From positions 558,001 through 622,000 of the forward strand of contig NC_083371.1 of NCBI RefSeq assembly GCF_029542785.1: a DNA stretch of 64,000 bases. The letters run 5' to 3'. Source of the DNA: Malassezia japonica (taxonomy: Eukaryota; Basidiomycota; Malasseziomycetes; Malasseziales; Malasseziaceae). A model generated the notes under the pieces. That model was not told where the DNA came from. It was given only the letters and a program-made list of their open reading frames with translations, and searched no databases. Of the stretch, positions 105 to 63,981 are shown one piece after another (the first letter of the stretch is position 1; every line of letters begins with the position of its first letter). A program made the translations under genes and the position numbers.

Positions 105-401
105 ATGCTGGGCCTTGGTACCATCTTTTACACGGCGCTCCTGCTCGTCAATGCGATCGCTGTGCTGAACGAGGACCGATTCTTGAACCGAAGTACGTCA
201 TGCCCCTAACGCAGTCGGCTGGTCGACAAACTCGCGTAGCATGAGCTTTGACGATACCGGCGATGCGGGCGTCAAAGCGCGGCTCGTCAACTTGATCAGC
301 GCCGTGCGGGTCCTCCTCCGAAGTACGTCTCCCCCACTGACAAAGTCCCCCTCATCGCTGTGAATATCATTGTAATTTTCTACGAGTTGATCCTAGGGTA
401 G
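105..401 (+). CDS. YOS1: Yos1-like ER-Golgi transport protein
   Basis: Exons 105-192, 215-322 and 346-401 join to an 83-residue protein. Yos1 (IER3IP1 in animals) is a small membrane protein needed for COPII-dependent ER-to-Golgi transport together with Yip1 and Yif1. The N-terminus, MLGLGTIFYTALLLVNAIAV, is the family's hydrophobic segment, followed by LNEDRFLNR; a second hydrophobic segment, IAVNIIVIFYELILG, ends the protein. Size and two-segment layout match the family. Both introns are tiny (22 and 23 nt) with GTACGT donors and CTAAC or CTGAC branch motifs, and each falls within a codon that is restored to isoleucine. Without removing them no frame covers the conserved protein. Confidence 0.88.
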
Positions 402-600
402 ATAGCATGCAATTCCTGCGCTGCTGAGCATCTATTTTTGCCTGCCACCTTTGGGCGTATTTTGCCCATCCTGCGCATTTCTCCGGCCTTCCGGTGTTGG
501 TTGGGAATTTTGTGGATCGCTGGATCGGGCGTGTCGATTCTATTCGGTTGACCCGTGTTGATCTACGCCCGCCATTCCCCATCCGGCGACATCAAAACCG

Positions 601-3600
601 ATGTCGTACGAGGACATGGATGCGCTCGCCATAGGGCCTGTTGACCCCTACCTATCGGCAGGGGGGCCCAGCGGCGCGCCGCGCCCGCCGCCGCGTAGCG
701 AGGCGAAGGAGCAGCGCCGCCGGAAGCGGCGGATGCAGCTTGCCGCTGCGCTCGTCGAGGCGGACAACGACGAGATCCAGCGCCGCGTCGCATTCCTTGC
801 GTCGATGGATCCCAAGGCCAAGGACCGCCCCACGCAGGTCTCGCTCGTGCCAAAGTACGCCAACCAAAGCGTCTTGTTTCACGAGGCCCTCGCTGGGTAC
901 ACGCAGCAGACGCGGCCGGTGTACGTCCACACGCCCCAGTCGATGCGCGAGCTTACCCGCTCGTACCTCGGCATGGGCGCACAGTGGATTGGCGACGACT
1001 CGCAGGAGATGCACATGATCGACGATAGCACTGCCCAGCGCGGCGACATGGCGTCGGTTGAGAGCGTTGCCCAGAACCTCTTGCAGCTGCAGCTCTCGCC
1101 GAAGCAGTTTGGATCGCCGTTTGTTGCATGGCAGCCGCCAGAGCCGCAGCCGCCAGAGGAAGCGCCGCCCGAAGCGCCCGAGCTGGAGCGGCCCGCCTTG
1201 CGCTCCTCGTCGTCGATGCCGTCGCTGACAGAGGCCGTCAAGGAGGAGCGGGACGAGGTGCCGGACGTGTCGATGGACACGACGCAGACCAGCGCACAGG
1301 ACCTGACGCGCAGCGCGCTCATGCTCCAGCGCATTCGCAAGTCGCGTGTCATTTCCGAATCCAAGAGCGTCGGCGATGCGGACCTCAGCGAGGACATGGA
1401 CGAGCCGCCCGCCGAGCCAGCGGAAGCCAGCCAAGTCTCAGAAGAGCCAAGTGTGGACGCCGAGCCGGAGCAGCCGCCGCCGGTCGAGCCGACATCCGAC
1501 CTGCTCGGCTTCCGCGCGCGCGTTCTCAAGCCCAGGGCGGAGCGCCGCCGGTCGAGCCGGCGGCACTCGCTCGCGGTGTCTGGCTGGCCAGAAGAGTCGG
1601 CACTGGCCGAGTCTGCACCCGAGACGCCCGCGATTGAGCAGAACCACCAGCAGGAGTCGCACTCGGACATGACGACACGTCAGCTGCAGCGCCTCTTGCA
1701 GGGCAAAGGCGACGTGGACTCGCAGCACGGCACGTCGGATGCGGGGCACAGTGCGAATAGTGCGCCCCTCGAGAACCTCGCGCCGATGCTTGCCCGCCGC
1801 GAAACGGCGCGTGCAAACGATCTCACGTCTGCCAAGTGGACGAAGCGCAAGAGCGGACTTCGCGCACTCTTTCCCTTTGAGCGCCGCAAGCCCCCCAAGG
1901 CGCATGCGAACGAGCCCACGGACAAGCCCATGATCCAGCTCGACACGGGCGACGAGAGCGTCGGTGCGCCGCAGTGGCGGGGCATGATTGAGGAGTCGCC
2001 CGTGATGGAGCGCCCGCGCGGCAGCAGCGCCGTGCAGTTTGCGTCCACCGCACAGACCTACGGCGACGAGGACCTGATTGGTGTGAGCCTCAAGACGCCG
2101 GTCGTCGACAACGACCGCCCGGACGAGGCATGGGCCCAGCCCGAGGCGCCTGCCGCGCACGACGCATCGTACGAACCTGCGCCTGTCGAGCCTGCCGGGC
2201 CGCGTTCCAAGGGCCTGACGTACATTTGCATTCCCGCACCGCTCGAGTACACGCCGCGCGAGTTTCCCGTGACGCCGTTCTTCGTGCCGCATGGCGCGTT
2301 CTACGTCGACGATCGCGGCGTCGTTCTACCCCGCAACAAGACGCAGGACGAGGCGCACTTTGAGCTCGACTTTGGCCCGGTGCAGGTACCGGAAGGCATC
2401 GGGCGCCGCGTCCTGTACCCCACTACCGCGCTCTTTCGCAACGCGCTCGTCTCGCGCGACGACGACCACGAAGGCTGGGGCTTTGAGCGCTACACGAACG
2501 CGCTGGCCTACTTCAAGCCGTCTTTGTACGCAGACGACGACGACTCGGACGACGAGGTGCCACTGATGGACGTGCGTATTCAGACTAGGGAAGAGCACCT
2601 CGCACGGCGCCGCGTCCACCGCGAACGTGTCCGCCGGAAGCGTGCGCACCTCGAGCGCCGGCGCCTGCGTGAGCTGGCCAAGCGCCAAGGAAAGCGCGCG
2701 TCCGTCTTTGGTATCGAGGAAGAGAGCAGCGAGTACGAATCCGACTCGGCGTCCACCGACTGGTCGGGCTTCAGCAGCGACGAGACGGACCCCGATGAGC
2801 CGTGGAAGGACGACCGCCGCCCTGCCGGAAAGCTGTACGGCAAGAGTCTCATTGGCCTTGCCGGCGAGCAGGACGTGCAGCGCCAGAACAAGGTGCGCTT
2901 CTACGGCCAGGTCAACCCCGACCGGCACAGCGCGCCGCCGGAAGGACTGGGCGGGTTCTACAACGATACGCGCGAGCGCATGGCCAAGGTATTTGGTCCT
3001 CATCCCCGCTGGATGAACGACATTGCGCGCAGGGAGGAAAAAAGCCAGCAGGAGCAGTACGATGCACTCAAGGTCGGCGGGACGCCGCTGCTCGACACGC
3101 AAGAGACCACGGATTTGTTAATGGAACCTGGCGTGCAAGAGGGCATAATTTACCCGTCCGTGCACGACGCAGAAGAGGCCGAGGCGCTCGCTGCGGAGGC
3201 GGCCGACGATGCAGCCGTCGCCGCATGGCAGGACTCGAGCGACGACGACCTCCCGAAAGAAAAGCCGCGCTTCGACAAGAGCCGCCCGCGCTGGGAGGCG
3301 AGGGAGGAAGACGATATCCCTCTGAACCGCCTGCGCCGCCGCTCGACTGCCGCCGACGCCAACTCGCTCGCGGGCGAGTCGGACGACGAGCAGCCGCTAG
3401 GCAACCGCCACCGCCAGGCGGCCATCATCGCCGAAAACCAGGCGCTGATCAAGCAGCTGCTCGAGGAAAACCGGCAGGTGCGCATGTCGCTCCAGATGCT
3501 CACGTCGATGCCGTACGCCGCGGGGATGCCATTCGCTCCGCCGTGGATGCCGCCGGCACGCTCGTCAGGCGGATTTGGGTCGATGCTCCATATCGACGAG

Positions 3601-4827: not shown

Positions 4828-4834
4828 ATGTACA

Positions 4835-5587: not shown

Positions 5588-5608
5588 CAAGTGGAGGTTC
5601 TCACGACG

Positions 5609-6205
5609 ATGTTTGCCTCGAGGGTCGTGCGCACGCCGTGTGTGCGCTTTGTGCGTAGCGTGCACAAGTCGATGTACGTTGCCAATTTAATGCAGGATGG
5701 AAATCGATGGTCATGACTCGCACAACACCTCGCGTCTCGCGATCCAGGCGGCGCGCCCCGGCCGCATCGAGACCGAGTTTACGATCGGGAAGGAGAATTG
5801 TAGGTGGCCCTGCTCACCCAGTGAACCGCGCCGGGACGCTGCATGGTGGCCTCATTGCGACGCTAGTCGACTCGGTCGGCTCGCTTGCGGTAGCGTCCAA
5901 GGGATGGTACAATACCGGCATCTCGACCGACATTAACGCGACGTTTGTGCGCCCCGGCGGCCGTCTGGACGACAGCGTGCTCGTCACGGGCGAGGTGGTC
6001 GGTATGGGCAAGACGCTCGCGTACACACGCATTGAGTTCCGTGACCCCAAGACGAGCGCCATTGTGGGTACGTGCCTGTGCTGACGCAGCCTACGGAAGT
6101 CACACCAAGTTTGTTCGCATGGCGTTCGGGTCGCCGGAGAATGTTGTATTTAGCGAGTCGGGCGAGGAAGTGCTCGAAGGCACCATGCCTGCGGATACAA
6201 AGTAG
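5609..6205 (+). CDS. Hotdog-fold acyl-CoA thioesterase (PaaI/THEM2 type)
   Basis: Exons 5609-5673, 5696-5799, 5822-6067 and 6090-6205 give 176 residues. PaaI/ACOT13-type thioesterases hydrolyse acyl-CoA. The hotdog signature is clear: NRAGTLHGGLIATLVDSVGS, then STDINATFVRPGG and the closing strands VLVTGEVVGMGKTLAYT. The start was placed at 5609 because the first intron joins a basic, arginine-rich leader (MFASRVVRTPCVRFVRSVHK) in frame to the family core; the leader could be a mitochondrial presequence, or the SVHKSM part may be the normal helix before the fold. All three introns are 22 nt; the second uses GTAGGT and CTCAC. The gene ends 1 bp before the Dhr1 stop on the other strand. Confidence 0.85.
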
Positions 6206-6206
6206 T

Positions 6207-9200
6207 CTATGCCTGCGTGATCCACCGCCCGTTTTCGTAGCGCTGCTTGGCGGTGATTGCGGGGAGCTCCCAGCCCATACCTTGGCCCGCGCCGCCGTCC
6301 TGCGCCGCACCGCCGTACCGTGGCGTGAGGAGCACGTCGCGCTCGGGCGCCGCGCTTTCGCCCTGGCGCAGCGCCTTGATCGAGCTGGTGAGCTTGCCAA
6401 GCAGCGACGAGGGCTGGGCCTCGGTCGGCTGCGAATACGTGCAGAGCGTCTTGCCGAGCTTGGGCAGCCACGCAGGGTTGACACGCGTAAGCGTCTTGAG
6501 CCATACCTTGCGTGCGGGTCCCTCGACGCCTTCGACCGTCGCCTCCTTCGATGAGCTCTGATGCAGCTCGCCAAAGACGATCCACTCGGGCGGCGTGCGG
6601 TGGAAAAAGGTTGAGCTCATGTGGATAAACGTCGGGCCGTGGACGCCGAGCGCAACGTACGGCACGCCGCGCGTGCTCGCAAGCTTGCTTCCGCGCACGG
6701 CTGGCGTCCCTTCTGCCTCGGGCGCATCAACAATGTCGGCGCGCACTGCAACGCGGTCGACATAGATGGCGCAGAGAAGCTGCCGCAGGACCTTGCATTG
6801 TGTCGCATCCGGCGGAGCAAGGCCGGGATCGAGGATGCGTTCCGCATCCTTGTCGCGAATGCCGGCCAGGTTCGCCAGCAGGATATGCCCGAGCTGCGCG
6901 CGCAGCTTGTGGATCTCCTCCATCGCCTTGAGGCGCACATAGTGCGAGCGGCAGAAAGCGCGTGACGAGCCCTTCGAAGCCTCGTGCGCGTATGCGCCGA
7001 CAACGCTCAAGAGACGGAACGCGTCGCTCTGGCCCTCGCCAAGAGCATCAAATACGCGCAGCGCGCCGTAGTACGCAGCCCGCGCTTTCCGGCGTGCCTC
7101 TTTGGCCTCGGCAGGGTCCATATCGAGCGGCACGGTCTGTGTCGTGTCCTCCCGCTCAAAGATGTCGCCGACGCTGAGCGCCGCGACGATGGCAACAGCG
7201 TACGGCAGGCACCCGTGCTGGTTGCCTTGCGCAAGTAGCTTGGCGTAGCGGGGAAGCACCGGGAAGAGCGCCATGGCGCGCCCGAGCTCGGTGATCGAGG
7301 CGTGCATATCGCGCTTTCCGCTCGCCTTGCGAGCCTCGCTCTGCTCGAGGGCACCGAGATGCATCAGCATGCGCTCGGCGCCGCGGAGTGCGTCGCGGTC
7401 TGGCGCTGTAGGGAAGGGGAAGTTGGCCACATTGTCAATGTTCATCGCCTTCATTTGGAGCACAAGACCCTCGACCGGCGTGCGCAGAATTTCCGGCACA
7501 CTAAAGTCGGGGAATACGTCTTCGTACACCGCGGAAGAGTACAGGCGGTAGCAGTGACCGGGGCCGGTACGGCCTGCACGACCAGCACGCTGCGCGGCCG
7601 ACGCCTTGCTGATCCACGCAATGTCATAGGACTGCACTTGGCTGCGCTGCTCAATGTGCCGCTCCTTTGCGCGGCCAGTATCCACGACATACTTGATGTT
7701 GGGGATGGTAATCGACGTCTCGGCCACGTTGGTCGCCACGACGACCAGGCGCGTGTTCTCCGGAGGATCCTCAAAAACGCGCTGCTGGTCGGCATTCGGA
7801 AGGAGCGAGTAGAGGGGAAGGATGTGCATCGGCATCGACGCAGGTTCAATGTCCTCTTCCTCTTCCTCGTCGCTGTCCAGCGCATCGGGGTCCGCCTCGA
7901 CATCCGGCTCGTCGACGTCCGCAAGCTCAGCCGTGCCAAGGTCGACATCCTCCGCTTCGATGTCTGCATCGCGCGCCGAGGGCGCAGTGTATTTTTGGCG
8001 GATTTCTTCCGCTCGCGCCTTCTTTGCAACAGCATCAGGACCGTAGCGCTGCTCGAGCTTGCGGCAGATGGTCGTGACCTCTTGCTGGCCCGTAACAAAC
8101 AGGAGAATTCCGCCTGCCGGAAGGCGCGCATGGATCTTGGACGCCTTCTTGACAGCCTCGGTAACGTAGTCCTGCACCGTCTTGCGGTTAAAGTGAATCG
8201 CAACAGGGTGCTGGCGCGCGCCGATCTGGATCAGGGGTGGGGGAATAGGGAAGAGCGTGCTGTTCTGCGTAAAGTCGCCGACACGCAGCGTCGCGCTCAT
8301 AATGACCAGGCGCAACGGACGAGGTGCCTCGAGCCCCTCGCCGCCAGCAGCCCAGCGCTGCTCACGCAGGCGCACGACGCGACTCAGCATACCGATCAGC
8401 ACGTCGGTGTTGACGCTGCGCTCGTGGGCCTCGTCGACAATGATCACGCTGTATTTCGTGAGGAGAAGGTCCTGTGCAAGCTCGCGGAGCAGGACACCGT
8501 CGGTCATGAACTTGAGCTGGGTATGCGGCCCTGTCGTGGCATCATACCGAATCTGGTGTGCGACATGATGCTTATCGAGGCCGAGCTCATGAGCGACACG
8601 GCGCGCCATGCTTACCGCCGCCACACGACGGGGCTGTGTCACGCCAATCATGCCAGGATTTGCTGCGTAAGTAGGGAAACGTACCGCTTCCGCCCGTGGC
8701 ATAGGCGGCTTCGTAGAGGAACTGGGGGACTTGGGTCGTCTTGCCGCTACCCGTTTCACCACAAAGCACGGTTACGGGGTTCTCGTTAATTGTGCGCACG
8801 ATCAGGTCCTCTTCGGCAACAACAGGGAGTGCCATGCGCGCCTCTTGCAGTGCATCGTCGCGCGTGACGGGGACGTGACGTACAGGCGCATTGTTTTTGC
8901 GGAAAAAGGCCTCTTCTTCAAAGAAGCGCTTGGCAAAGGTCGACTTGGCTGCAGGCGACTCAATATCGCGGCCGAGGGGGCCACGAACCTTGCCGTCCTG
9001 GGGACCGAGATCGCCGACACGGTCGACGCGGCCGCCGACGGGCTCAAGAGGGCGGCCTTCGAGCTCTGTGCTGCCTTTTTCAGGGCGTGCGAGGTGCAGT
9101 GCTTCCAGGGCCCACTGCTTGAAGGCTTTGGTACGACTTGACTCGCCGAGGCCCCAACGCTTGGACTGTGGTTCAGACGGGAGTTGTTCGTCATCGTCCT

Positions 9201-10485: not shown

Positions 10486-11572
10486 CTATACGGGCGGCAC
10501 AAAGTCCGAGATGCGGTCGCGTGCGTTCTGCGCGATGCACTCGGCGATCCAGCAGATCGACCGAATTTCCTGCTCCTTGAGCTTGAGCCAGGAGTAAAAG
10601 ATGCCGTACTGAAACTGTGTCATGGTCAAGAGGCGGTTGACTGTGTGAGCAAAAATACGTACGTTCGACCTCCAGTTCAAACATCTTGTCCTCGAGCGAG
10701 TCGGCGCTCACGCCGCCGCCCGACGAGAGGTTGTTGCCCGAGTCCTCAAAGAGGCGCCGGTACTCGGGCACGGACTCGACGATGGTCTTGACCTGCTCGA
10801 GCTCGTCGGCCTTGGCCAGTGCGTTGTTGCCGGCCGGGTACAGCTTGCCGATCGTCGGGAAAAGGCGCGCGCGCTCTGTCTTGCTCAGCAGCGTGCCGAA
10901 CGAGTTGATCGTGATGTTGATCGTGCGGCGGTCGGCCTCGAACGCGAGCAGCTCGTGCATGCTCTCGGCCGTCGTGCCGCCGAGCGTCTGGGTGAACTGG
11001 TAAAAGTCCTCGAGGTACGCCTTGTACAGCTTATTGCGGATAATCTCAATGTTGAGGTCATCGAGCTCCGAGGCGGAGAAGCAGTCGCGGAAGTAGGGCG
11101 AGAGCGGCGTCTCGACCAGCACGGTGCGGTACAGCTCCTCGACGCTTGTCGCGACACATAGCGCAGGCAGCGTCTCAAACCATCCCAGTGGGTGGCACCG
11201 GTCGAGCAACTCGTGCGTGTCGCGCCCGTGCAGCGTGCCCGTAATCAGCAGGATGACATTGTCGATCATGTACGAGTAGGTGAGATAGTCCAGGAACTTG
11301 CTCAGCGGCTCCGTCGCGTTCGTGCGGAGATACTCAAACTCGCTCACCAGCTTCTTGGTCGCCTTGTGCGCGATCGCCGACGTAGCCAGAGGCGACGGCT
11401 CCGACGCAAGGAAGTTGCCATAGTCCGTCGCCGACAGCTGCATGCGCAGGTCATCGAGCGTCTCGCACTGCGTCAGCGCCTGGTAGTTTCCACTGGTCAG
11501 CATGGACGACCGGTAGCCGCGCACGACGCCTTCGAGGAAGCCGCCATTGATGTTAAACGTCAGCGCCTCCAT
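10486..11572 (-). CDS. VMA6: V-type H+-ATPase subunit d (Vma6)
   Basis: Exons 11572-10663 and 10640-10486 give 354 residues, close to the 345-350 usual for the family. Subunit d couples the central stalk to the c-ring in the V0 sector, acidifying the vacuole. Conserved text is dense: FNINGGFLEGVVRGYRSSML at the N-terminus, LTQCETLDDLRMQL, YMIDNVILLITGTLHGRD, RCHPLGWFETLPAL, IEIIRNKLYKAYLEDFY and, after the intron, KEQEIRSICWIAECIAQ. The single 22-nt intron lies after EVE and restores LNRLLTMTQF. It shares a 190-bp upstream region with the divergent deacetylase gene. Confidence 0.96.
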
Positions 11573-41034: not shown

Positions 41035-41523
41035 ATGGACCCGATCACGCATCTGGAAGACGCGCTGGATACCCTGCTCAAGGTGATGGCGTCGGCCATT
41101 GCCTACCTGTCGCGCAAGGCGGGGCACAAGCAGGTGAATCCGCGCATCCCCCTTACCGTGCTTGGCACGACCGAGGCGCTGCCGGACGAGGAGCTCGCGT
41201 CGAACCGTGACGAGCTCGTCCACGACCTCGTCGCACAGGCAAAGGAGGTCGAGGCGCGCATCGGCTCTTTGCCGACACTCGATGGCGACGAAGAGGCACG
41301 CGTACGTACCGCCCCTCACGACAGACGACACGCCTCGCGTCGCTCCAGGCAAAATTACACGCAGCGAATAACGACTACCGAGATGCGCTCCAGGAAGCCC
41401 GTACGTCTTACCGACTGACCCCGAGACGCGCTCCTCGCCCAGCTCGATACCCTCCTCCAGCGCCTGTGCACCGAGCGCCAGGGCGCACGGCAGCTGCTCG
41501 AGCCTTCTGCATCACGTGCCTAG
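41035..41523 (+). CDS. MED21: Mediator subunit Med21 (Srb7)
   Basis: Exons 41035-41301, 41325-41400 and 41426-41523 give 146 residues, the usual family size. Med21 is an essential Mediator middle-module subunit pairing with Med7. The start MDPITHLEDALDTLL and the helix NRDELVHDLVAQAKEVEARI followed by GSLP are characteristic; a long coiled coil follows (LASLQAKLHAANNDYRDALQ). Introns are 23 and 25 nt. The second ends in GAG rather than CAG, which is unusual, but no other acceptor keeps the coiled coil. Its stop is 68 bp before the Sre1 start on the same strand. Confidence 0.87.
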
Positions 41524-44640: not shown

Positions 44641-46719
44641 CTAGTCTATCTCGATCGGCTCCGATTTCTGCCGCTTGGCCGGCCGCTTGGCGGGGCTCGC
44701 GCTGCGCTTCGCCTCGAGGTCCATGTGCTTGTCGTGGAGCACGAGGTGCACGACGCCGCGGAGGTGCTTGGCGTCGCTCAGGCCGTGCTGCAGGAGCTTG
44801 CGTGCATTGCGGCCAGGCGCAATGTACACATTGACGGTGTAGGCCGTGGCCTGAAATGTCTCGGTGAGGTAGCCGCCGAGCAGCAGCTGGACCAAGAGGC
44901 GCTCGGCATTCTCGCGCGACAGGCCCAGCTTGCCGCCGAGCGCCTCGAGATCGAGCGCGGCAGTCGCGTTCGACGCACGGCCCGCCTCGTCCGCCACTTT
45001 GTACTGCGCGCCGCCGAGGCCGCGGCACAGATCCGCGAGCGCCGCGAGCGTGCACCGCCCTTGGTTGCGCTGCACATCGCTGGCGGCCATCACGGTCTGC
45101 CACGCTTCGAACGACACGTCCTGCGGGCGCTTCGGCACGAGGCAGTTGTCGCATACTCCGCAGTCTTTCTCGTCGCGGGGCTCGTCAAAGTAGCATGCAA
45201 AGAGCTGCTTGCGGCACTGCGCAGACTGGGCATAGCCGAGCATGGCGTATACTGCATGAGCTGGGCGACGTACGTTTCTCTGCGCCGCCGACCTCGCCAG
45301 CGGTCAGCGAGCTGACGCGGCTCGCGTCGGCGGGGCGGTACAGGAGCAGGCACTCGGCGTCTCCGCCATCACGACTGCGTTAGTAGAGCGACGTACCCCG
45401 CGCGGCCCGTCTCCTGGTAGTATCCGTCGAGCGACTTGCTTAGGCATGCGTGCACGACAAAGCGCACGTTGCCTTTGTCGATGCCCATCCCAAAGGCAAT
45501 CGTCGCACACACCACCGACACGCGCCCAGAGCGCCAGTCGGTGTGTACACGGTGCTTTTCGCTTTCGTCAATGTCGGCGTGGTAGACGCCGGTGCGGATC
45601 CGGCCGTTGCTCAGCTGCTCGAGCGCAGTTGCGACCGTGTGTGTGTCTTTGCGGCTGAGGCAGTACACAATACCAGACTCGCCGGCATGATGCGTCTCAA
45701 TATAGGCACAAATCGCCTGGTGGGCGGCCAGCGTGCTATTCGGGCGCGTCGCGACGCGGTAGCGCAGATTCGGGCGGTGCAGCGGCGCGCGAAAGTAGAC
45801 TGTACGGCGCGCAATCGCCGCCGTAGGCGCAGTCACAGCGCGCATGCCGAGGATCTGCAGCACGTCCTGCAAGGCGCGCGGGCCGAGCGTCGCAGTAAGG
45901 GCCATCACGGGCGTCTTGGGAAAGAGGCGACGGCAGATGGAAAGCTTGTTGTAGTCAGGGCGGTAGTCGTGGCCGAGCGTGCTGCAGCAGTGTGCCTCGT
46001 CGACGACAATGCGGCCCAGGCGGCCGTCTTCGTAGGCCCGCTGGAGGGCAGCCAGCAGCGTCTTGGACTTGGCGACACGCTCCGGTGTGACGTACAAGAG
46101 CTTGGGCGCGTCGGGCGTGCGCCCATCGCGAATGGAGCGCAGGATCTCTCCAGCCTCTTCTTTCTGCGTCGTGCTCGACAAGAGCGCGCAAGGAATGTGC
46201 CGCGCTCGGAGATTGTACACTTGGTCGCTCATGAGCGCAATCAGCGGAGATATCACAAGCGTCAGCGAGTCGTCCAGCAATGCGGGGAGCTGGTAGCACA
46301 GCGACTTGCCCGCGCCTGCATTAGTTGCCCCACGTACCGGTCGGCATCACGACGACCACGTCGCGGTGGTCCATCGCGGCATTGCACACGCCTTCCTGGC
46401 CCATGCGAAAACTCTCGATATGAAACACGCGCCGCGCCTGGTGCAGCAGCTCGGAAGACCAGGGAAAGCCCTGCTTGGTATAGTCCACGGCGGCCTCTTG
46501 CCCTGCATCGGCGGCCGCCTGGCGCTGCTCGGCGTAGATCGCGTCGCGTTCGTCGAGGAGCTGGCGCTTCACGCGCCCGAGCTCTTTGATTTGGTGCGCG
46601 ATACTTTCCAGCTCGGCATCAATCTGCGACACTCGCGCCTGGGCGGTATGGTCGAGGTCCTCGGCGCGGCACACGTCGACGACCTCGACCTCGGCCTCCT
46701 CCGAAGCCGAGCGCGCCAT
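44641..46719 (-). CDS. RecQ-family DNA helicase (RECQ1-like)
   Basis: Exons 46719-46338, 46315-45397, 45374-45274 and 45251-44641 give 670 residues. RecQ helicases unwind recombination and stalled-fork intermediates 3'-5'. Motifs across exon joints: MPTG|AGKSLCYQLPALL (Walker A), DEAHCCSTLGHDYRPDY, ALTATLG, GIVYCLSRKDT, FGMGIDKGNVRFVVH and YYQETGRAG|RDGGDAE. The RQC zinc ligands appear in CRKQLFACYFDEPRDEKD followed by CGVCDNC. The N-terminal coiled coil and short length resemble RECQ1 more than Sgs1/BLM, and no HRDC domain is visible. All three introns are 22 nt, and two of them interrupt helicase motifs. The start is 27 bp from the divergent TPR-like gene. Confidence 0.92.
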
Positions 46720-46746: not shown

Positions 46747-48033
46747 ATGCAGGCGAGCGGCGAAGCGACGCCGCTCGACGCACTTTTCGGCGCTAGTTTC
46801 GACCTGAACGATGCCACGCAGGACCCTGCCGAGGCCAAGCGCTTGCGGCGCGAGGCGCGGTTCCGCGCAGCGTTTGAGCACGCGCGCGAAACGTACACGG
46901 CCAAAATCGACGACGAGGCATGGTTTTTCGAGCACGGCGTCCAGGACGAGCCGCACGAGGTCGAGCAGGCAGTAGAGCTCGACGCAAAGACGACGCAGCG
47001 GCTGGGTACGTTGCTCTTCTCACACAGAGGCGTGCATTACCTATCTCTACTTTAAGAAACGGTACGCTGCCGCGTACGCGTGGGCGTGCGCGCTGCTGCG
47101 GCGGCTGCATGTGCTCGTCGAGATGCCGAGTGGTGCGTGGCACGCGACAAGCACGTTCCCTGCGTATCCCGTACGCTCCCAGACCAAGCTCCAAAAGTCG
47201 CTGAGTGGGTCGGGCGCCGCGCGTGAGTCACTCGATATAGCACTGCGGTGTATGCTGCAGCTGCACCCTGATACCCTTTGGACACTGTCCAACGAAGAAC
47301 TTGGGATTGTCGCTGCAGCGTTCCACAAGGTGCGCCTCGATCCGGCCGAGTACCGCGGCCTCGTGGCCGGCGATGTGGTCCAAGACGACGCTGTAAAAAA
47401 GATGCTCGTACGTCGCTCGACTAACCCAGTGGACGCCACTCCCCGGCCTTGCCGTGACGCTCGGCGACGTATGTGCGCGCAGCGGACACTATCGCAGTAC
47501 GTCCTTTTACTGACACAGGCGCCCTCGAAGCCTATGCGCTTGTCCTCGGCGTGCGTGGGCCGCAATGGCGCATCCTCGCGTCGTCTGCCTATGCGTTTTC
47601 GGAGCTGGCGCACGGTACCAACAGCCCTGCGCTCTGCACGCTCGCACAGGCATCGCTCGCATGCGCACTCCAGGTCTGCACCTTTACGAACCGAGTCACG
47701 CTCGCACGCAACGCACTCGCAGGCAAGGTCCTGCGCCCCGAGCATATTCCCCCGCTGTCCTCGGCCCCCGCCGCGGAGCAGCACAGCGAGGCGAGCGAAG
47801 ACGCGGCGCTCCTCCACGACCTCCTCCACACCGAGCCGCTGCGCCCCGAGGCAACGGTCGGTGTGCTGCATGTTGCGCTGCGAAAGCGCGGCGGCGCATC
47901 CCTACTGAGCAAGCGTCTCCCTTCTTACCTCTATACTGCGCAGCAAATGCTCCAAGGCAACGACACTGCATGGTTCGCATACGAAGACGACGCGCCCGCC
48001 GCCGAGGCCCCTCGTAGTGTCAAAACCTTGTAG
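46747..48033 (+). CDS. TPR-like helical protein, function unknown
   Basis: Exons 46747-47005, 47028-47407, 47430-47496 and 47519-48033 give 406 residues. Helical repeats of tetratricopeptide type are suggested by [60 protein letters not shown] and LALVLGV-like spacing, but no repeat fits the consensus well. I do not recognise an ortholog with known function. All three introns are 22 nt; without them the frame breaks three times. It starts 27 bp from RecQ in the other direction and ends 22 bp before the Kae1 start. Confidence 0.7.
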
Positions 48034-51463: not shown

Positions 51464-52877
51464 ATGCTTGGAGGGCGCATTCTCCTAGCTTTGGGAGTGA
51501 CTGCGGCTGCTGCTCGTAACTTTTCCATCTGCCAGGAATGGTCCGGCGAAGATTTCCTTGACAATTTCTACTTCTGGAAGTACAACGACCCTACGCGAGG
51601 CAAAGTTGACTATGTGGATCGCAAGGGGGCAGCCAAGAAGAACCTGACGTATGTGGACCAGCACACGGGTCGCTTCGTCATGACGGTCGACCACGGCGGC
51701 GATCCTGTGCCGTTGAATGGAAACAAGAGCGACCTGGGCCGCCAGAGCGTGCGTTTGCATTCCAATCATGTTTATGGCGATGGCGTGTATATTATCAAGG
51801 TTTCTTGGATGCCTCAGGGATGCGGGTGCGCAGAAATGGCAGAGAGCTTACCACAGTACATGGCCGGCGTTCTGGACGTCCACACCAAACAACTGGCCGC
51901 AGGGTGGCGAAATCGACATTATTGAGGGTGTCGATGGCGAAGGCGCTAATCTTGCGAGTCTCCACACGGGCGGTGCATGCCAGGTTCCTTCTAATGTGAG
52001 CACCGTCCAGCAGGGGTACGTTGCGTATTTTTGCTCACCCAGTTCCTTGCAGCAGCCCAACTGTACCAACCAGCCCGGATGCGCCACCAAGTTTGACAAT
52101 GTCGCCTCGTTTGGCCTTGGATTTAATGCGAAGTATGTCTTGGATGCATTCTGACCACAGCGGCGGCGGTTATTTTGCCATGGCGCGCGACACGCAAGTC
52201 GGTGGCCGAGGCGTACGTGACGCAACCTGACCTTAGATTGCCATGTGGTTCTGGCCCGCGAGTCTGGACTCCAAGTCGCTCCCTGTCGAGGTGGTGGCGC
52301 CTTTGAACAACGCGCCTACAACGCTGAACTACGAAGACGCGATCAACGCATGGGGCAAGCCGCAGGCCTTTTTTGGCTCCGACTTTGGTAATGGCTCAGA
52401 CTGCTCCATGAGCGAAAACTTTAATAACCACGAGATCATTTTCGACACGACGTATGTACCGAGGGAAATCCATGCTAACACAGGCTGTGCGGATACTGTA
52501 TGTATTCTTCCGTGACCAGCTAACGGCAGGGGGCGCAGGCGCATTCTCCACGTCGAATCTATGCCCCAGGACAACGTGTCAGGACTTTATTATCAGTACG
52601 TCTCCTTGCTAACCCAGACAATGGCTCGCAACTGGACGGCGCGCGCTGGGAGATTGACTATCTGCGCATCTACTCTAATGGATGCGAGAAGCAGACCGAC
52701 AAGCCGTGTCCAAAGGGGCAACCGGAGGGCGACTGCTCGCACTGTCCCGAAGGTTCCGACTGCCACAAGGCATCGGCCGGCGTGCGGCTGTCTGCGCCGG
52801 TGACGGGCACGCTCACCTTTGCTCTGACCAGCATGATCGCGGCGTATCTATTCGTCGAGTTGTTGAATTGCATGTAA
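51464..52877 (+). CDS. Secreted, probably GPI-anchored GH16 endo-beta-glucanase
   Basis: Eight exons: 51464-51825, 51857-52015, 52043-52132, 52161-52212, 52237-52451, 52484-52497, 52530-52595, 52618-52877; 405 residues. GH16 enzymes cut beta-1,3(4)-glucans of the cell wall. A signal peptide (LLALGVTAAAA) starts it; the catalytic motif GGEIDIIEGVDG is at about residue 138, preceded by GCGTWPAFWTS and followed by FGLGFNANGGGYFAM, MWFWPASLD and HEIIFDTTLCGYW. The Cys-rich tail ends in a hydrophobic segment (LTSMIAAYLFVELLNCM) fit for GPI attachment. Introns are 31, 27, 28, 24, 32, 32 and 22 nt, longer than elsewhere, one exon is 14 nt, and the codons are less GC-biased than those of neighbours. 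Confidence 0.85.
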
Positions 52878-53832: not shown

Positions 53833-55053
53833 TTACTCGATCACGCGGTAGGCCCTCTTCTTGAGCTTGATCGCACCCGTGTGCGCGTTGCTCATGGGCT
53901 GCTCGTAGCGGAGGTGGGAGCGGAAGCGGCGCAAGTACAGGATCGCCACGTCCTCGAGGACATCAGGGTCGATGCCGAGGTCAGCAAAGCCCTTGACGCC
54001 CGTCACGTTGGGGTTCTCGCTGATGAAGCGGCGCTCCACCTCATCCGCGTTGAACATGGGCCACCAGATGCCCTTCTCACCCAGGCGGGCCACGCTCTTG
54101 AAAATGAACTTGGGCACGTTGATATCCGGCGAGATGAGCTTCTGGTAGGTGACGCTCTCGACGAGCTCCAGCAGCTCGCGGACCGTGTACGTCTTGGGAC
54201 CAGGAAGCGCATAGGTCTGGCCGATCGAAGCAGCGTCTGTCTCGCCAATGATGGCGAGCGCTTGCGCCACGTCGAGCGAGTGGACGGGCGCGTACTGCGT
54301 CTGCATGTTGTTCAGCTTCCAGGTGATGGGCCAAGCTGCGTTAGCTAGAAAACGTACAAGCAAGCTTGTTCAGGAAACGGTCCTCGTGGCCGTACATCGA
54401 CGAAGGGCGCACAACCGTCGCGCCATCAAACGAGCGGCGCACGGCGTCCTCACCAAGCGCCTTGGTGCGCAGGTAGCCGCTCGGCGAGTTGGCGTCCGCG
54501 CTCAGGTGCGACATCTGCACAAAGCGCGCAACACCCGCACTCTGCGCGATCTCGGCAATGCGGCGCGCACCCTCGACGTGCACGTCATGGAAGGAGAACC
54601 GCTTCGTTTCGTAGTTGCGGCCCGTGAGGTTGTACACGGTGTCCGAGTGCCGCAGACACTCGAGGGTCTGCTGGTCATTGCGCATGTCCCACTCGAGAGG
54701 CACGATCTGTCCAAGGTCGCCGAGAACGCGCAGGTGACGCTTCTCTTCCTCGTCACGGTAGGGCACCACAACCTGCGTACCGCGCTTTGCGAGCTTGCTC
54801 ACGAGGTAGCGGCCGAGGAAACCAGTCGCACCAAAGACGGTAGCCACGCTGCCCGTCACCGAGTTGCTGCGTGAGTCAAGACGACGTACCGACCGAGGCC
54901 GTATGGGCCCCTGGCAACCTGAGGCATACCCGTCTTCCTCTTGATAACCACATCCTGCATGTACGTGCGCACAGAGACACCAGCAGGTGCCGCTGCCTTG
55001 CACGCACGAGGAGCCACGCCCGCAACAAGGGGCATGTTCATCGCTGCGATCAT
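53833..55053 (-). CDS. Complex I 39/40-kDa subunit (NDUFA9-like, atypical SDR)
   Basis: Exons 55053-54891, 54867-54358 and 54335-53833 give 391 residues. NDUFA9 is an accessory subunit of mitochondrial NADH:ubiquinone oxidoreductase that binds NADPH. The nucleotide loop is VFGATGFLGRYLVSKLAKRG; then DTVYNLTGRNYETKRFSF, FVQMSHLSADANSPSGYLRT and VVRPSSMYGHEDRFLNKLA. The first exon encodes a presequence-like leader followed by VVIKRKTGMPQVARGPYGLG, which matches the conserved start of fungal family members. The start is one of two nearby Met codons (55053 or 55041). Introns are 23 and 22 nt. Confidence 0.9.
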
Positions 55054-55165: not shown

Positions 55166-57106
55166 CTATTCGTCCGACGAAGTGGAGGTGGTGTCCGCCT
55201 CGGAGTCGTCCGAGAGGTCCAGGTAGCGGTCGCTGGAGAAGAGCGTGCGCGATTCTTCTTCGCGCAGGAGCTCGTCGAAAAGGGCGATGGCTTCTTCGTC
55301 GGCGAGCTCCGCGGCAGTGGGGGGGCGGGGTACGCCGTCCGGCTCATAGTGCGCTGCGAGATGCTCCTCGGCACGGTCGGTCGCCTCGGCAGAGTCTGAA
55401 TCGGAATCCGAGTCGAGCCGCCCGTGATTTCTCCGTATCGCACGCACGACAGCGGCCGTATTCATAGCGCGCATGCGGGAGCGGGTGCTTGGGCGATTCG
55501 CAAGGTAGTCGTCGAGCGTATGCTCGATCGACGCAGGCGTCGAATAGTGCAGGCGCACCACGCGCTCGATGCCGGCCGTGGCAACCATAGGAAGGGTCTG
55601 TATTAGAATAAGGACGTACCGGATGGCACAGTGCACTGTTCACAATCGAACGCGAGCCTTCGAGCGTAAATGACGGCGCATAGAGGTCGGGCGGCTTGAC
55701 CATCGTCGGCACGTCGCGGCTCGCATCGGTGCGGAACCACACTTGGTCCGTGCCTTTGGTCGAGTGCGCGAGCCAGTCGGTGGCGGGCATCGCCTCGCGC
55801 TGCGCAAGCAGCGTCTCGGTGTGGGGGATGCGCCAGCCATACGCCCGGAAGTCGTCCGAACCGGTCACGTAGTACAGGTGCCCCGTCTGCGACTCGAACC
55901 CAAACGAGCCGCGCTTGACCGTGCACGAGTTGCGGTAGCCGGCGTACTTGTCGAGCGTCGAATGGGGGGGGTGCGACAGGCACGGATTCATGTGGGGATA
56001 GCGCTCGAGCGACGACATGGTCGCCAGCGGCTCAGGGCTGCCCACTGCATAGAGCACGGGGTGGAAGAGCGACACGTCGGCGACGAGGAAGCGGCCGCTG
56101 GGATCAAATTGTGCGCCGGTCGTCTCCATGCGGCGCACGGCAGCACCGTGCGGGGGGCGCTTGATGCACAGCTCAGACGCATAGCGCACGAGCGAGTCGT
56201 CAATGTCGACATAGGAACTCTGCTCGCGGAACACCTTGCGCGTGTCAAATAGCCTGGGTCAGTCAGTACAGGTACGTACGCAACACCGGCATTCGGCTCG
56301 CACACGGTCGCAACGGCAAACGTGCGCCCGTCGCTCTCGTTTGGATTCCACTGCGCCGATGCGAGCTGGGCCGGGAAGTAGCCAAACGCCGCGACGTGCG
56401 TATCGGGCAGCCGCAGGTCGACGAGGAACAGCTCGCCGCAGTCGCTCGAGCTTAACAGGAGATTCGGGTTCGTGGGATGCGCCGATACTTCGCGAATCCC
56501 GGCCTCGTGGGACGATACGACGGCATCCGAGAAGCGCCGCTCGGCATTCGTGCGGATTGTGTACGCGGGCGCGTCGCCATAGTTCAGGTCGTAGCACAGC
56601 ACCTGCTGGTCGTTCCCGCCAGAAAAGAGGTGCCGATTCCCGCAGCTCCACGACAGCGAAAAGATGTTGGACGTGTGCCCAAGAAGCCGCGCATGCGTGC
56701 GGTACGTGCTAGACTCTGCCGTACCAGGGCGCTGGGGGTCATAGTCAAAGAGATCGCGCACATGGATCCGCATGTCGTCGCCACCGCTCGCCAACCACTG
56801 GCCCGAGCCCCGCGAAAAGGCAAGCGCATTAATACACGAGCGATGGCCTCGCACTTCGTGCAGGTACGGAAACCCGGCAGTGCGTATCGCCTCAGAGAGG
56901 ATGCCTCGCCGCGTCTGCATCGCAGCGGTGCGACGCCCGACGGGATCAAGCATGCGCACGTCGCGCGACTTGTATCTGTTTTGCAGTACAGGAGGTGGAT
57001 TAGGGGGGGTATCAAGAGGTTCCGGGACATGGACAATGCTGGAGGTAGACGCTGTATCGCCAGACGCGGCGCGCGCGCGCTTCGCCGACCGCCGCGTCGT
57101 CCTCAT
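55166..57106 (-). CDS. WD40 protein, likely DDB1-CUL4-associated factor (DCAF)
   Basis: Exons 57106-56280, 56253-55620 and 55597-55166 give 630 residues. WD repeats read HEVRGHRSCINALAFSRGSG, LASGGDDMRIHVRDLFD, LLGHTSNIFSLSWSC, LFSGGNDQQVLCYDL, and later LYYVTGSDDFRAYGWRI. Two repeats end in the DDB1-binding WDxR-type box: FLVDLRLPD and ALFDTRKVF, the second restored by the 26-nt intron. Arrangement with an interrupted propeller and an acidic Ser-rich tail (DLSDDSEADTTSTSSDE) resembles DCAF5/DCAF8 proteins. DDB1 itself is coded 19 kb away. The substrate is unknown. The other intron is 22 nt. Confidence 0.78.
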
Positions 57107-57472: not shown

Positions 57473-58153
57473 ATGTCCGAAGAGTACTCGTCGGTGCTCT
57501 TTGTGGTGCGCGAGTGCTACGTCTACCGAGTCCCCCCCCGCACGTCCGCTGCCGGCTACCGTGCCGGTGAATGGGGCGATGTCGACCAGTCGCTGTGGAA
57601 AGGGCGCATGCGCATTGTCGAGTACAAGGATCGGTGCGAGATCCGCCTCGAGGATGGCGAGACGGGTACGTCGCGCGGCTAACGCAGGTGAGCTCTTTGC
57701 CGCGAGCCCCTACGATGTGAGTGGAAAGTCGGTCGAGCCCGTGCTCGACTCGTCGCGCTACTTTGTGCTGCGTGTCGAGTCGGACGGCCCGACGCCCGAT
57801 CAGCGGCGCACGGCGTACATTGGAGTCGGCGTACGTGACGTGACTGACGCAGTTTATGGAGCGTTCCGAGAGCTTCGACTTTACGGTCGCCCTCCAAGAT
57901 TGGACGCGGTACGTGGGCTCACTTACGCAGGCGACGCAAGGCGGTTCTCGCTGGAGCGGACGACGAGGACGACGAGGCGCCCCCCCGTCCGTCGCCGCAC
58001 CTGCCGGCCGGCCCGAAGCAGGACTTTTCGCTGCAGGAAGGCGAAACGTTGAGCATCAAGTTGCCGGCGCTGCAAAGCAGGCCGAACGCGCCGAGCGCCT
58101 CTGCGACGCGCACGGGCTTTGTGCTTCCGCCGCCGCCGTCGGGAAAGCGCTAG
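57473..58153 (+). CDS. NECAP-like endocytic adaptor-binding protein
   Basis: Exons 57473-57665, 57688-57830, 57853-57908 and 57931-58153 give 204 residues. NECAP regulates the AP-2 adaptor during clathrin-mediated endocytosis through its PHear domain. Family text runs over all joints: VLFVVRECYVYRVPPRTSAA, GYRAGEWG, WKGRMRIVEYKDRCEIRLED, DSSRYFVLRVESDG, IGVGFMERSESFDFTVALQD, then DFSLQEGETLSIKLP in the tail. All three introns are 22 nt and two interrupt the PHear domain. The start ATG lies in a good context just before SEEYSSVLFVV. It converges on the UPF0390 gene with 97 bp between stops. Confidence 0.93.
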
Positions 58154-58250: not shown

Positions 58251-58551
58251 TTACGGCTTCGGCTTCGGCTTTGCGCCCTTGTCGGCCTGGTCCGCAACCG
58301 AGCGCATGATCGACAGGGGTCCCTTTTGCGCGCGCCCCGCCATTTCGCGCTCGATGCGCGAGGTAGAGAGAGCCGTGTCGCGCTGGATCAGCCACGCAAC
58401 GTACCTTTTTCTGGATGACCTCCTGCAGTGCGCCCTTCTTCTTCGGTGCGATACGCTTGCCGACCTTGGGGCCTGCGTTGCTGTTGCCCTTGCGCTTCTC
58501 TTTCTGCGCAACGCCGAGGTTGCGCTTCAGCGGCTTGAATCCCTGCGCCAT
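58251..58551 (-). CDS. Small basic UPF0390-family protein
   Basis: Exons 58551-58405 and 58382-58251 give 92 residues. UPF0390 proteins (human C19orf53) are short, lysine-rich and nucleolar or ribosome-linked by location; their role is poorly known. The start MAQGFKPLKRNLGVAQKEKR and GKRIAPKKKGALQEVIQKK are family-like. After the 22-nt intron come a helix, RDTALSTSRIEREMAGRAQK, and the tail KPKPKP. Without removing the intron the C-terminus would be a different, longer, unrelated sequence. Confidence 0.8.
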
Positions 58552-58607
58552 GGTAGAAAAAACGTAAATCGCGAATCGGGCAAATTTTTGGCTTTGGACC
58601 GCCGCCG

Positions 58608-60157
58608 ATGCCGGTGGATCTGCTGCGCGAGAGCGCAAGCAAATACTTTCCGAGCGAGTACTATGGCACGATCCTCGGCGCTATCATTGTCCTAGCATTC
58701 CTGAAATCGTGGGCAAAGGGCCCTGCACTGCTTGTGCGCGAAGAGCGCCTCGAAGCGACGCAGCGCGCGGCGCGCGAAAAAGGGCAGCCGGTACGCGTCA
58801 CCGCTGGCCTGAACGATATGGGCGCGCGTGTCGTGCTTATTGCGGTACGTCGCGAGACTCACTCACACAGACGGGTGCCATGTCGCCGCTGGGCCTCGTT
58901 ACCATTGCGTCGCTGGCGCACCAAGGCGCGCACATTATCGCGCTCGTTCCCAACATTGAGGCGCCGAGCGTGCTGCAGCTCCTGCTGCTGCTGCGCGAGA
59001 GCACCAAGAGCGAGACGATCTATGCGGAGCAGTGCGACATGAGCAACCTGCACTCGATCACCGAGTTTGCAAACCGCTGGAACGCTGGCTCCGCGCAGGC
59101 GACGTCCGCGCCGGGCGCTGCGACCGGAGCGCCGACCGCGGCCGCGCCGGGCGGTGCCAAGGCCGCGCGCGAGGAGCTCTTTCCGCAGAGCACGCCAGTC
59201 GTCCACCGCCTCGACACGGTACTCTTTCTGCCGAGCGAGGAGTCGACGTACAAGATCGGCACGTACCGTTGCGGCACTCGGCATACGTACCCCTCGACGC
59301 ACGCCGACGACGGCGCGTACGCCGAGCAGACGTACGTGCGCCAGGTCCTCGCACCCTTCCATCTTGTGAATACGCTCCTGCCGAGCCTGCTTCTTATGCC
59401 GCCGAACCGTGACGTGCGCATTGTAAGCGTCGTCTCGCCGTGGTACGCGGCGGGCCTCGCGCAGTTTGACAAGGTCGACGAGCCGCTGCGCGGCCCCCAG
59501 CCCCGCGTCTACCAGCCATGGACATACCTCGGGGCAGCGACACTCCACTGGATCGTCCTGGCGTCGGAGCTGCAGCGGCGCGTCAACTTGCTTGCCGAGG
59601 CGGACACGCGCTCACGCTCCAAGCTGCCAGGCATCGACGTGGACGAAGTGACGACCGTGCCGACCGGCACGCTGCAGCGCAAGGGGCAGCGCAGCCACAT
59701 CTCGTCGGTGCTGGTGTGCCCCGGCTACGAGCGCTCCTCGCAGCTGACCGCGTTTTTTGGCACCGTGCCGCCGTTTGTGCACCACAAGGTGCTGTCGGTG
59801 CTCCTATGGGTCCTGCTTCTGGCGCTCTATCCCCTCTTTTGGCTCTTTGGCAAGAGCGCGACACAGGGCGCAGACGCGGCACTATGGGGCGTCACGGCCC
59901 GCCTCGCGTCCGGCGTCTCGGCGTCCTCGCGCCAGACGCGCGAGGATATCCTTGCGCCGGGCGAGAGCGACGACGAGGCGCGGCAGTGGCCGGGTATCGA
60001 GGCCGCGCGCCTCTACCGCGAAGGCCGCATCGTCGTGCCCCCCATGCCTGCGCAGCTCGAAGGCAAAACCGATGCATCCGAGCTCTGGAACAAGACCGAG
60101 GCGCGCGTCGAGGCGCTGTTGGGCGGTATTGCGCATGCAGGCGCAAAACATAGCTAG
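58608..60157 (+). CDS. DUF1776-type short-chain dehydrogenase-like membrane protein
   Basis: Exons 58608-58844 and 58871-60157 give 507 residues. An N-terminal hydrophobic helix (YYGTILGAIIVLAFLK) is followed by a Rossmann-like start VVLIATGAMSPLGLVTIASL, restored by the 26-nt intron, and SDR-like elements RIVSVVSPWYAAGLA and VYQPWTYLGAATLHWIVL. The canonical TGxxxGxG and YxxxK are not well preserved, as in the fungal DUF1776 family (which I believe includes yeast YLR426W), so enzyme activity is doubtful. A second hydrophobic stretch (VLLWVLLLALYPLFWLF) lies near residue 395. An Ala/Gly insert follows residue 140. The stop overlaps the Pop1 stop on the other strand. Confidence 0.72.
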
Positions 60158-62664: not shown

Positions 62665-62763
62665 CGTCTTCGAAAATCGGGTGATCGGGTCTGCAACGCG
62701 GCGTTGCTTACAAAAAAAGCGGGGCGCTTTGACGCACGGGGTCTCGTACGTTGTGTACCGACC

Positions 62764-63981
62764 ATGTTCAAGAACCTGCTCAACAAGGAAAAGAAGAAGA
62801 TCGAGAAGGAGGTGCTTGGCTCGAGCGGAAAAGGCTCCGGCAAGCAAGGCAGTGGCCACGGCGGACACAGCGGCGGCGGTGCCGGCCATGGTGGAGGCGG
62901 CCATGGCCACGGCGCGGCGGGTGCCGGAGCGGGTGCGGGCGCTGGTGCTGGTGCGGCGGGTGTCGCGGGTGGTGCAGCGGCCTCGCGTCACGGCGCGGGC
63001 CATGGCGCGCATGCCGGCGGCAAGCCGGACATCACGACGTTTGACCTCGCGGGCCTGCCTGTGCACGTCTATGGTCTGAACAACCTGACGCCTGCCTCGC
63101 CGAACGGTGTGCCCGACGTCTGCATCAATGTGCACATGCACGGACGTACCGGCTCTGCGAAGAACGAGGAGTCCCTCGCCACCGAGCTGTACACCAACAC
63201 TATGAACGAGCGCGCGGCGCTCGCGCAGTCGGCCCGTGCGCGCGACTTTTTGCTCGTGACCTTTGACTCGCGCAACCACGGCCAACGCAAGACGAACCCC
63301 CAGGGCCAGAAGTCGTGGAAGGAGGGCAACCCTACACATGGGTATGTACACTTGCTGACGCAGCGTCGACATGTACGGCATGATCCGCGGCACGGCGGCC
63401 GATGTATCGTTTATCATCCAGATGCTGCCTGCTTATCTCTTCCCTAATGACGAGCGCCGCGTCTCGATCTTTACCGTAACCGGTAAGAGTCTCGGCGGTC
63501 ACTCGTCGTGGCAGGTGCTTGCACGTACGTATCGCAACTCACCCAGATGAGCCGCTGATTCGCATCGGCGTGTCGTTCATCGGGACGCCCGATTTCCAGA
63601 AGCTCGTGGCGATGCGTGCCAAGAAGTCGAACCTGTCCGATACACCGCCGACGGTCCCCGGCTCGCTGCGCGCGCTGCTGCAGCGCGTGGACCCTGCTGC
63701 ACAGCCCTACCGCGAGGCGGGCCCGCAGAACCCCTTCTTTGGCAAGAAGATCTGCGCGTGCAGCGGCGCGGACGACACGCTCGTGCGCTTCTCGTACTCG
63801 CAAGAGTTCCTGGAGAACCTCGTCGTGGCCCCTCCGGGCTCGGACGAGGCACGCCGCAGCCTCCAGGTGTATGTACAGCCGAACACGGGCCACACCGTGA
63901 CCAGCGAGAGTACGTTTCTTGGCTCACCCAGTGCTCCGCATCGGTGCCCAGTGGCTCACGCAGTGGGCACTGCCTTATTAA
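62764..63981 (+). CDS. Alpha/beta-hydrolase with Gly/His/Ala-rich leader
   Basis: Exons 62764-63341, 63364-63524, 63547-63909 and 63932-63981 give 383 residues. Strands and loops of an alpha/beta hydrolase are clear: PDVCINVHMHGRTGS, FLLVTFDSRNHGQR, the nucleophile elbow VTGKSLGGHSSW with Ser in GKSLGGH, GVSFIGTPDF, a probable acid in CSGADDTLVRF and the His in NTGHTVTSE. Substrate is unknown; such proteins include esterases and dienelactone-type hydrolases. Residues about 20-95 are a low-complexity Gly/His/Ala/Ser leader not seen in the fold. All three introns are 22 nt, and the last coding exon encodes only 16 residues. It is 99 bp from the divergent Pop1 start. Confidence 0.83.
62820..63033 (+). 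repeat. Low-complexity repeat coding Gly/His/Ala-rich segment
   Basis: GGC/GGT/CAC/GCG-rich DNA in the first exon of the alpha/beta hydrolase encodes units such as GHGGHSGGGAGHGGGGHGHG and AGAGAGAGAGA. The His-rich part could bind metal ions; it could also be a neutral linker. Confidence 0.8.

Follow-up and report, generated by a model that had tools for sequence, protein, structure and literature searches.

Introns of 22 nucleotides in Malassezia japonica and the two-part floor on their length

Introns of Malassezia have been called "very short" in a review (PMC7426719), and in the portions of the literature cited here those of M. restricta have a median of 30 nucleotides (nt) and a mean of 37.2 nt (PMC9241646), those of M. 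globosa have a mean of 76–79 nt (PMC4634964), and annotators of the genus have set the parameter min_intron_len to 15 (PMC6473144). The genomes measure 7.2–9.0 Mb, apart from the doubled genomes of M. furfur (PMC4634964). Here we describe the introns of Malassezia japonica from a 64,000-nt stretch of its DNA (the window; bases 558001–622000 of contig C2, NC_083371.1; 64% G+C by base counts) and from the genome to which it belongs, analysed as 8.43 Mb in 9 contigs. Introns of exactly 22 nt dominate, and two internal distances, from donor to branch and from branch to 3′ end, both stand at a floor. M. restricta and M. globosa likewise have very short introns, with neither an exact 22-nt mode nor a fixed branch position reported in the cited portions of those accounts, and the open-licence literature examined, including parts of PMC8476143, describes no exact 22-nt mode with both distances at their floor for Malassezia or any other fungus. 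Very short introns in Malassezia are therefore already known, and it is the 22-nt mode with its double floor that appears, within that literature, to be new.

Among the closest described systems, Stentor coeruleus also has introns of near-uniform length, with a branch A fixed at position 10 or 11 and 5 nt from the end, but they are shorter (15–16 nt), AU-rich and without a strong branch consensus (PMC9505925). The same account lists Slu7 and Prp18 as not found, on BLAST searches about which its authors urge caution, whereas both are matched in M. japonica. Type B introns of Trichomonas vaginalis resemble those described here in being about 25 nt long, the shortest 23 nt, with the branch close to the 3′ end; they number 24 among 63 active introns (PMC12316389), whereas here an estimated 2,700 introns of 22 nt occur in a fungus. 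Yarrowia, Trichomonas and Giardia, like M. japonica, lack a polypyrimidine tract and anchor the branch a few letters from the AG. In Yarrowia the branch motif lies 2 nt from the AG, as in the commonest layout here, but Yarrowia introns are rather long, whereas in M. japonica the donor-to-branch distance is at its floor as well (PMC2483917). Because their lengths cluster narrowly below about 35 nt, the introns of M. japonica fall with the ultra-short class known from ciliates, nucleomorphs and Trichomonas, and in lacking a polypyrimidine tract and keeping a short, fixed distance between branch and AG they are of the Yarrowia type. An earlier note on the window, made from its sequence, had placed them near the shortest spliceosomal introns known; short they are, but the record is not theirs, given the lengths cited above for Stentor and Trichomonas.

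The length distribution was obtained with a gene finder that uses no donor or branch motif: it reads both strands by codon statistics and admits as an intron any GT...AG interval, with a flat length distribution from 12 to 150 nt, so that GT..AG itself is required by the finder and is not an emergent feature. Applied to the window together with C1:200001-400000 of the same genome (264 kb in all, the sample for all gene-finder counts below), it called 105 introns, of which 45 are 22 nt long, the next most frequent length being 23 nt (n = 5). Under the control rules TG..GA, GT..GA, TG..AG, GA..TG, GC..AG and GG..AG the finder made 94–103 calls each, with 1–3 at 22 nt, and under CT..AC, AT..AC and AC..CT it made 90–94 calls, with 4, 5 and 1 at 22 nt, respectively. 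These results confirm that the 22-nt peak is real and, among the ten rules tried, specific to GT..AG, and the sharp mode at a single length claimed by the earlier note is borne out.

A motif-pass finder, with donor, branch and acceptor matrices trained on the 45 motif-free 22-mers and no length preference, placed 171 introns in the same sample: 83 of 22 nt, 16 of 23 nt and one of 21 nt. A decoy with the motifs written backward yielded 92 calls, none at 22 nt, and under a stricter penalty 22-nt introns made up 71 of 132 real calls and none of 68 decoy calls. Up to 40 nt there were 143 real calls against 19 from the decoy. Two counts that are independent of reading frame, a genome pattern search and a count of branch layouts (below), agree with the frame-based finding. 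The pattern GTACGT-N(1-31)-CTAAC-NNAG, in any reading frame, has 535 matches in the genome against 4 for its reversed form, and among the matches listed (100 of 535, all on C1) 88 are 22 nt long and none is shorter. In the window alone, the pattern GTRNGT-N-CTNAY-N-YAG at 22 nt occurs 30 times, against a mean of 0.0 over 40 first-order resamples. Two extrapolations from the 264 kb, near 2,650 and 2,800, put the genome-wide number of 22-nt introns at about 2,700.

The 22-nt introns share one anatomy. C14, T15 and A17 are present in all 45 motif-free 22-mers, in which no branch motif was required (CTNA, with the A at 17); the rest of the donor, the CTNA and the CAG emerged unprompted in this set, and hold in the 83 motif-pass introns too. 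The consensus of the 83 reads GTACGT, a weak G8 and C9, R13, C14 T15 N16 A17 C18, and then N C A G, with position 16 nearly even (A 25, C 24, G 22, T 12). The donor-to-branch distance of about 16 nt proposed earlier is thus recovered exactly, G1 to A17, in 45/45 motif-free and 83/83 motif-pass introns. A17 is probably the branch point, to judge from its place in the motif. The layout would then be a GTACGT donor (positions 1–6), a 7-nt spacer (7–13), a CTNAY branch pentamer containing A17, and letters 19–22 ending in CAG. Position 12 is T in 31/83 (p = 1e-4) and position 13 a purine in 68/83 (p = 3e-9), both positions being unused by the motif matrices; the enriched letters there could pair with U2.

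Two further features of the same 83 introns stand apart. Donor position +4 is C in 66/83, a letter with which canonical U1 and U6 would not pair. G8 (49/83) and C9 (51/83) are more frequent than base composition would give; C9 could extend the pairing with U6.

To describe the floor, we call spacer the number of nucleotides between the donor hexamer and the branch pentamer, and tail the number from the branch A to the last G. Counted by spacer and tail, independently of frame, the 264 kb hold 202 layouts against 34 in the reversed control, and the single cell with spacer 7 and tail 5 holds 98 against 0. Spacers of 0–6 stand at control level (8 vs 8), and a spacer of 6 does not occur at the tails counted (4–13). 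Scored by best branch, spacer 7 and tail 5 describe 81 of the 83 motif-pass 22-mers. Of 150 introns measuring 20–60 nt, 125 have a tail of 5 or 6 nt. The floor is accordingly two-part: donor hexamer and branch pentamer are separated by no fewer than 7 nt, and the 3′ end almost always lies 5 nt or more beyond the branch. Extra letters in longer introns sit mostly between donor and branch, and among the sixteen 23-nt introns nine have a longer spacer and seven a longer tail. We considered whether the 23-nt introns are 22-mers with one doubled letter; 11 of the 16 fit, but random one-letter insertion fits in 82% of cases, and the idea was dropped.

Support from conserved proteins was sought for the window introns. 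The window list comprises 51 intervals, 29 of 22 nt and 6 of 23 nt, with 44 within 22–32 nt; the other seven are one of 16 nt, which is at noise level, and six of 51–243 nt, where the method is unreliable. Against the earlier estimate of about 56 introns, of which 32 had 22 nt, 7 had 23 nt and 52 were no longer than 32 nt, the peak stands and the totals are somewhat lower. Intron-bearing genes number 21 by the model and 22 with Yos1. Pfam was run on 13 of the 22, of which 10 match a family and three match none; one of the matching genes (4HBT) has its junctions beyond the matched region. The 22-nt junctions that lie within Pfam matches number eleven, three of them near an edge (two in RecQ, one in TPR): one each in V-ATPase subunit d, an epimerase-fold protein, DUF2462, Yos1 and a TPR protein, and three each in NECAP (DUF1681) and RecQ. 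Read without splicing, 9 of the 10 genes tested run into an early stop.

The junctions of these genes lie as follows. In the V-ATPase subunit d gene, the motif-free intron at 10641..10662 (−) joins at residue 303, inside PF01992 (13-348), and the protein aligns with PDB 6vq6_d (E=4.9e-128). NECAP has three 22-nt introns on the plus strand inside PF07933 (5-175), at 57666..57687 (motif-free), 57831..57852 and 57909..57930 (both motif-pass), and aligns with PDB 6owo_N (E=6.6e-37); both structural alignments span the junctions. The RecQ helicase (−) has 22-nt introns at 45252..45273 (residue 467, near the edge of RecQ_Zn_bind, 465-505), 45375..45396 (residue 434, near the edge of Helicase_C, 327-437) and, motif-free, 46316..46337 (residue 127, inside DEAD, 107-278). 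Among the matches listed for this protein (120 of 8000 scored), the named relatives that rank best belong to Ustilaginomycotina (Exobasidium, Pseudozyma, Ustilago, Tilletia). A protein from Malassezia sympodialis shows 62% identity over 68% of the query, and another listed protein, at 99% identity over 44% of it, may come from the same species as the window. A gene named by eye as NDUFA9-like (−) carries a motif-free 22-nt intron at 54336..54357 (residue 224, inside Epimerase, 64-251) and a motif-pass intron of 23 nt at 54867..54889, and the DUF2462 gene (−) a motif-free one of 22 nt at 58383..58404, inside PF09495 (1-78). Yos1 (+), added by hand, has introns of 22 nt at 193..214 and of 23 nt at 323..345, and its spliced protein matches PF08571 over 1-81 of 81 (E=1.4e-32). 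In the TPR gene (+), the 22-nt intron at 31954..31975 was re-cut from 43 nt, and its 22-nt version, the one scanned, gives TPR_1 at 98-125 (E=1.1e-8) with the junction at residue 100; the same gene has 22-nt motif-pass introns at 31809..31830 and 32071..32092.

By their donor, branch and acceptor consensus, by the reading frames that their removal restores and by the canonical U2 and U6 boxes in the genome, these are U2-type introns. U6 gave one match over the Rfam cut-off, with ACAGAGA intact (47 of 448 candidates scored), and U2 one match over its cut-off, with GUAGUA intact; no Rfam family reaches cut-off within the window itself. By their signals they do not match U12-type introns, which have an (A/G)TATCC donor and a TCCTTAAC branch, the donor here being GTRNGT in 81/83 and the branch CTNAY in 82/83. 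An alteration of U6 to suit the +4 C of the donor was ruled out by the canonical ACAGAGA. A METTL16-like gene (PF05971) is also matched, one piece of it with an internal stop, and is named by family only because PF05971 also matches 5 control genomes.

In yeast genetics, a short distance from branch to 3′ splice site relieves the need for Slu7 and Prp18. That the 5-nt distance here has made these factors dispensable was ruled out, as both genes are matched (Slu7, E=2.3e-91; Prp18, E=1.7e-18). Nor is a loss of U2AF65 alongside the polypyrimidine tract supported: a U2AF65-like match is present at C9:362333-363526 (E=3.9e-66), its 224 bits lying below the curated cut-off of 310 bits, and the same model also weakly matches two bacterial control genomes, all below cut-off. 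Genome-wide searches with RED_N and with LisH_TPL (for Smu1) found no match, but the control genomes were also silent, which makes this a lead and not evidence of absence; RED and Smu1 are described as helpers on which short introns depend in humans (PMC6692369).

We suggest that these are, very probably, U2-type spliceosomal introns at the shortest layout that the spliceosome of this yeast would accept, brought there by deletion-biased compaction and kept from shrinking further by purifying selection. U6 ACAGAG would pair with about letters 4–6 of the donor, and U2 GUAGUA with positions 12–16 and 18 around a bulged A17, which would leave about five nucleotides free between the two helices. 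A polypyrimidine tract would not fit, so the 3′ end would be whichever YAG comes first at about 5 nt beyond the branch. Compaction through biased deletion would shrink the introns until purifying selection halts them at the floor, and a spike at one length would follow; selection against length enters as part of this proposal.

Several alternatives share parts of this evidence. The 22 nt might simply be the sum of the required signals, maintained by a strong bias toward deletion and not by a steric limit of the spliceosome. Donor (6), branch pentamer (5) and NCAG (4) already make 15 nt, deletion bias would pile introns up at any working minimum, and the spacer varies in sequence, positions 8, 9 and 13 showing weak preferences. 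We consider this neutral outcome unlikely. If signals were all that mattered, spacers of 3–6 should be seen, yet the shorter spacers do not rise above the control, and a spacer of 7 that is only weakly constrained in sequence occurs 98 times at the same tail for which a spacer of 6 is absent.

A single length with strong shared ends would also be expected of introner-like elements of fixed size that were recently copied, and similar pairs among the 83 introns do exceed all 60 column shuffles, with 18 pairs at 2 mismatches (mean 9.05, maximum 15), 83 at 3 (54.7 and 71) and 279 at 4 (218 and 268). This mild excess suggests either dependence between positions or the duplication of a few introns. 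Copies that are nearly identical and spread over many sites were not found: only 3 of 3,403 pairs differ by one letter or less (on average 0.78 and at most 4 in the shuffles). Copies are thus the exception, and recent copying is very improbable as the source of the peak. We give practically no credence to the intervals being something other than introns, such as programmed frameshifts, assembly errors or coding inserts. A length of 22 (3n+1) does shift the frame, and small intervals are prone to mis-calling, but the donor, branch and acceptor signals of these intervals keep a fixed register, and the intervals themselves interrupt conserved domains, recur hundreds of times and peak under GT..AG alone among the rules tried.

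Other observations weigh against introns poised at a spliceosomal limit, or temper the counts behind that reading. The earlier note had proposed a spliceosome working at a fixed geometric limit; a floor with almost nothing below it is seen, while the inability to go lower is read from the length distribution, that is, from absence below 22 nt, and would be a limit only on that reading. On its 3′ side the floor admits exceptions, because 21-nt layouts occur: three with spacer 7 and tail 4, besides the one 21-nt motif-pass intron. Two of the 83 have a second, higher-scoring CTNAY upstream. The motif agreement of the 83 is partly built in, because the motifs were learned from the 45. Frame-based finding under-counts lengths divisible by three (21, 24), and some control rules peak at other lengths, the largest such peak being 21 calls at 13 nt under AC..CT. 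Above 40 nt the decoy made 73 calls against 28 real ones, and we therefore make no claim on long introns. The search for a U1 gene yielded no confirmed U1. RF00003 had no match genome-wide, nor in any control genome, and a U1 5′-end pattern had three genome matches (reversed control, 0), one with a G complementary to the +4 C and two with C. The candidate with the complementary G was rejected: it is a serine-rich coding stretch, reads CAG followed directly by GTACGTAT on the other strand, and gives no Rfam U1 up to E=10.

The geometry of the U2-type introns invites comparison with the human spliceosome. About 52 nt are needed in the human B complex, where a U6 helix of 17 nt and a U2 helix of 14 nt are bridged by about 21 nt of RNA (PMC6692369). 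Those human introns that have been tested fail when donor and branch are less than about 46 nt apart (PMC11291888). The 16 nt found here is about a third of the human value of about 52 nt. If assembly follows its usual order on such an intron, the helices would have to be shorter and the two small nuclear ribonucleoproteins would have to approach each other differently. A bolder possibility, which we offer tentatively and hold to be somewhat doubtful, is a compact spliceosome acting on thousands of introns with its helices nearly end to end, the second-step factors Slu7 and Prp18 being matched along with U2AF65-like and METTL16-like genes, and the models for the short-intron helpers RED and Smu1 giving no match, which does not establish that they are absent. 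If so, the adaptation would lie in a different route through B-complex activation and not in the loss of second-step factors.

The remaining window introns were placed as follows. Hand editing re-cut three model intervals into four (31954-31975; 36784-36805; 52498-52529 and 52596-52617) and added 193-214, 323-345 and 5674-5695; the re-cut at 31954 and both Yos1 introns have domain support, and those at 36784, 52498, 52596 and 5674 have the motif alone. The earlier note had offered five intervals for checking, starting at 193, 5674, 8663, 31954 and 63525. All five are GT...AG 22-mers with A at position 17; independent support extends to 193 and 31954 (domain) and 63525 (motif-free), while 8663 comes from the motif pass and 5674 from the motif only. 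The last is an intron-like 22-mer (5674..5695, +) in an N-terminal extension of the thioesterase gene, carried over from that note; the gene itself has 22-nt introns at 5800..5821 (+, motif-free) and 6068..6089 (+, motif-pass), both with junctions outside the 4HBT match. Genes named by eye have 22-nt motif-pass introns at 8663..8684 (−; DEAH-helicase-like), where the motif-free finder put 8611-8680, at 24724..24745 (−; PKC-like) and at 55598..55619 (−; WD40-like). In the endosulfine gene a 23-nt motif-pass intron at 40426..40448 (+) joins at residue 40, inside PF04667 (10-77).

Further 22-nt introns were placed by the motif-free finder at 33352..33373 (+), 38514..38535 (−), 47006..47027 (+) and, also on the plus strand, 63342..63363, 63525..63546 and 63910..63931, the protein at 47006 and that at the last three being without a Pfam match. 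The motif pass added 47408..47429 and 47497..47518 (both +, 22 nt), 41302..41324 (+, 23 nt) and 41401..41425 (+, 25 nt). At 36784..36805 (−) the finders chose 49 nt, and the interval was re-cut to 22 nt by motif. Other motif-pass introns on the plus strand lie at 52016..52042 (27 nt; protein without a Pfam match), 52133..52160 (28 nt), 52213..52236 (24 nt) and 52452..52483 (32 nt), and a 120-nt call was re-cut by motif into 52498..52529 (+, 32 nt) and 52596..52617 (+, 22 nt), likewise in a protein without a Pfam match.

A small RRM gene at 19474-20110 (+) has three tiny introns, of 24, 23 and 23 nt, and none of 22: 19541..19564 (motif-free; residue 22, inside RRM 10-80; a 21-nt version, 19541-19561, is possible), 19738..19760 (motif-free; at the end of the RRM match) and 20056..20078 (motif-pass). 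Both 26-nt introns of the window, at 56254..56279 (−, motif-pass) and 58845..58870 (+, motif-free), are two of five in the 264 kb, and in each the 22-nt layout is enlarged by a tandem duplication of 4 nt at the branch site.

The duplicated branch sites of these two introns offer a natural test of how the branch A is chosen. Gene predictors with a larger minimum intron length would be expected to mis-annotate such a genome. The splicing of tiny introns in other organisms poses a structural problem, and M. japonica may serve as a natural test of minimal intron size, as here a lower limit can be read directly, split into donor-to-branch and branch-to-end distances, in a fungus whose U2 and U6 boxes are canonical.

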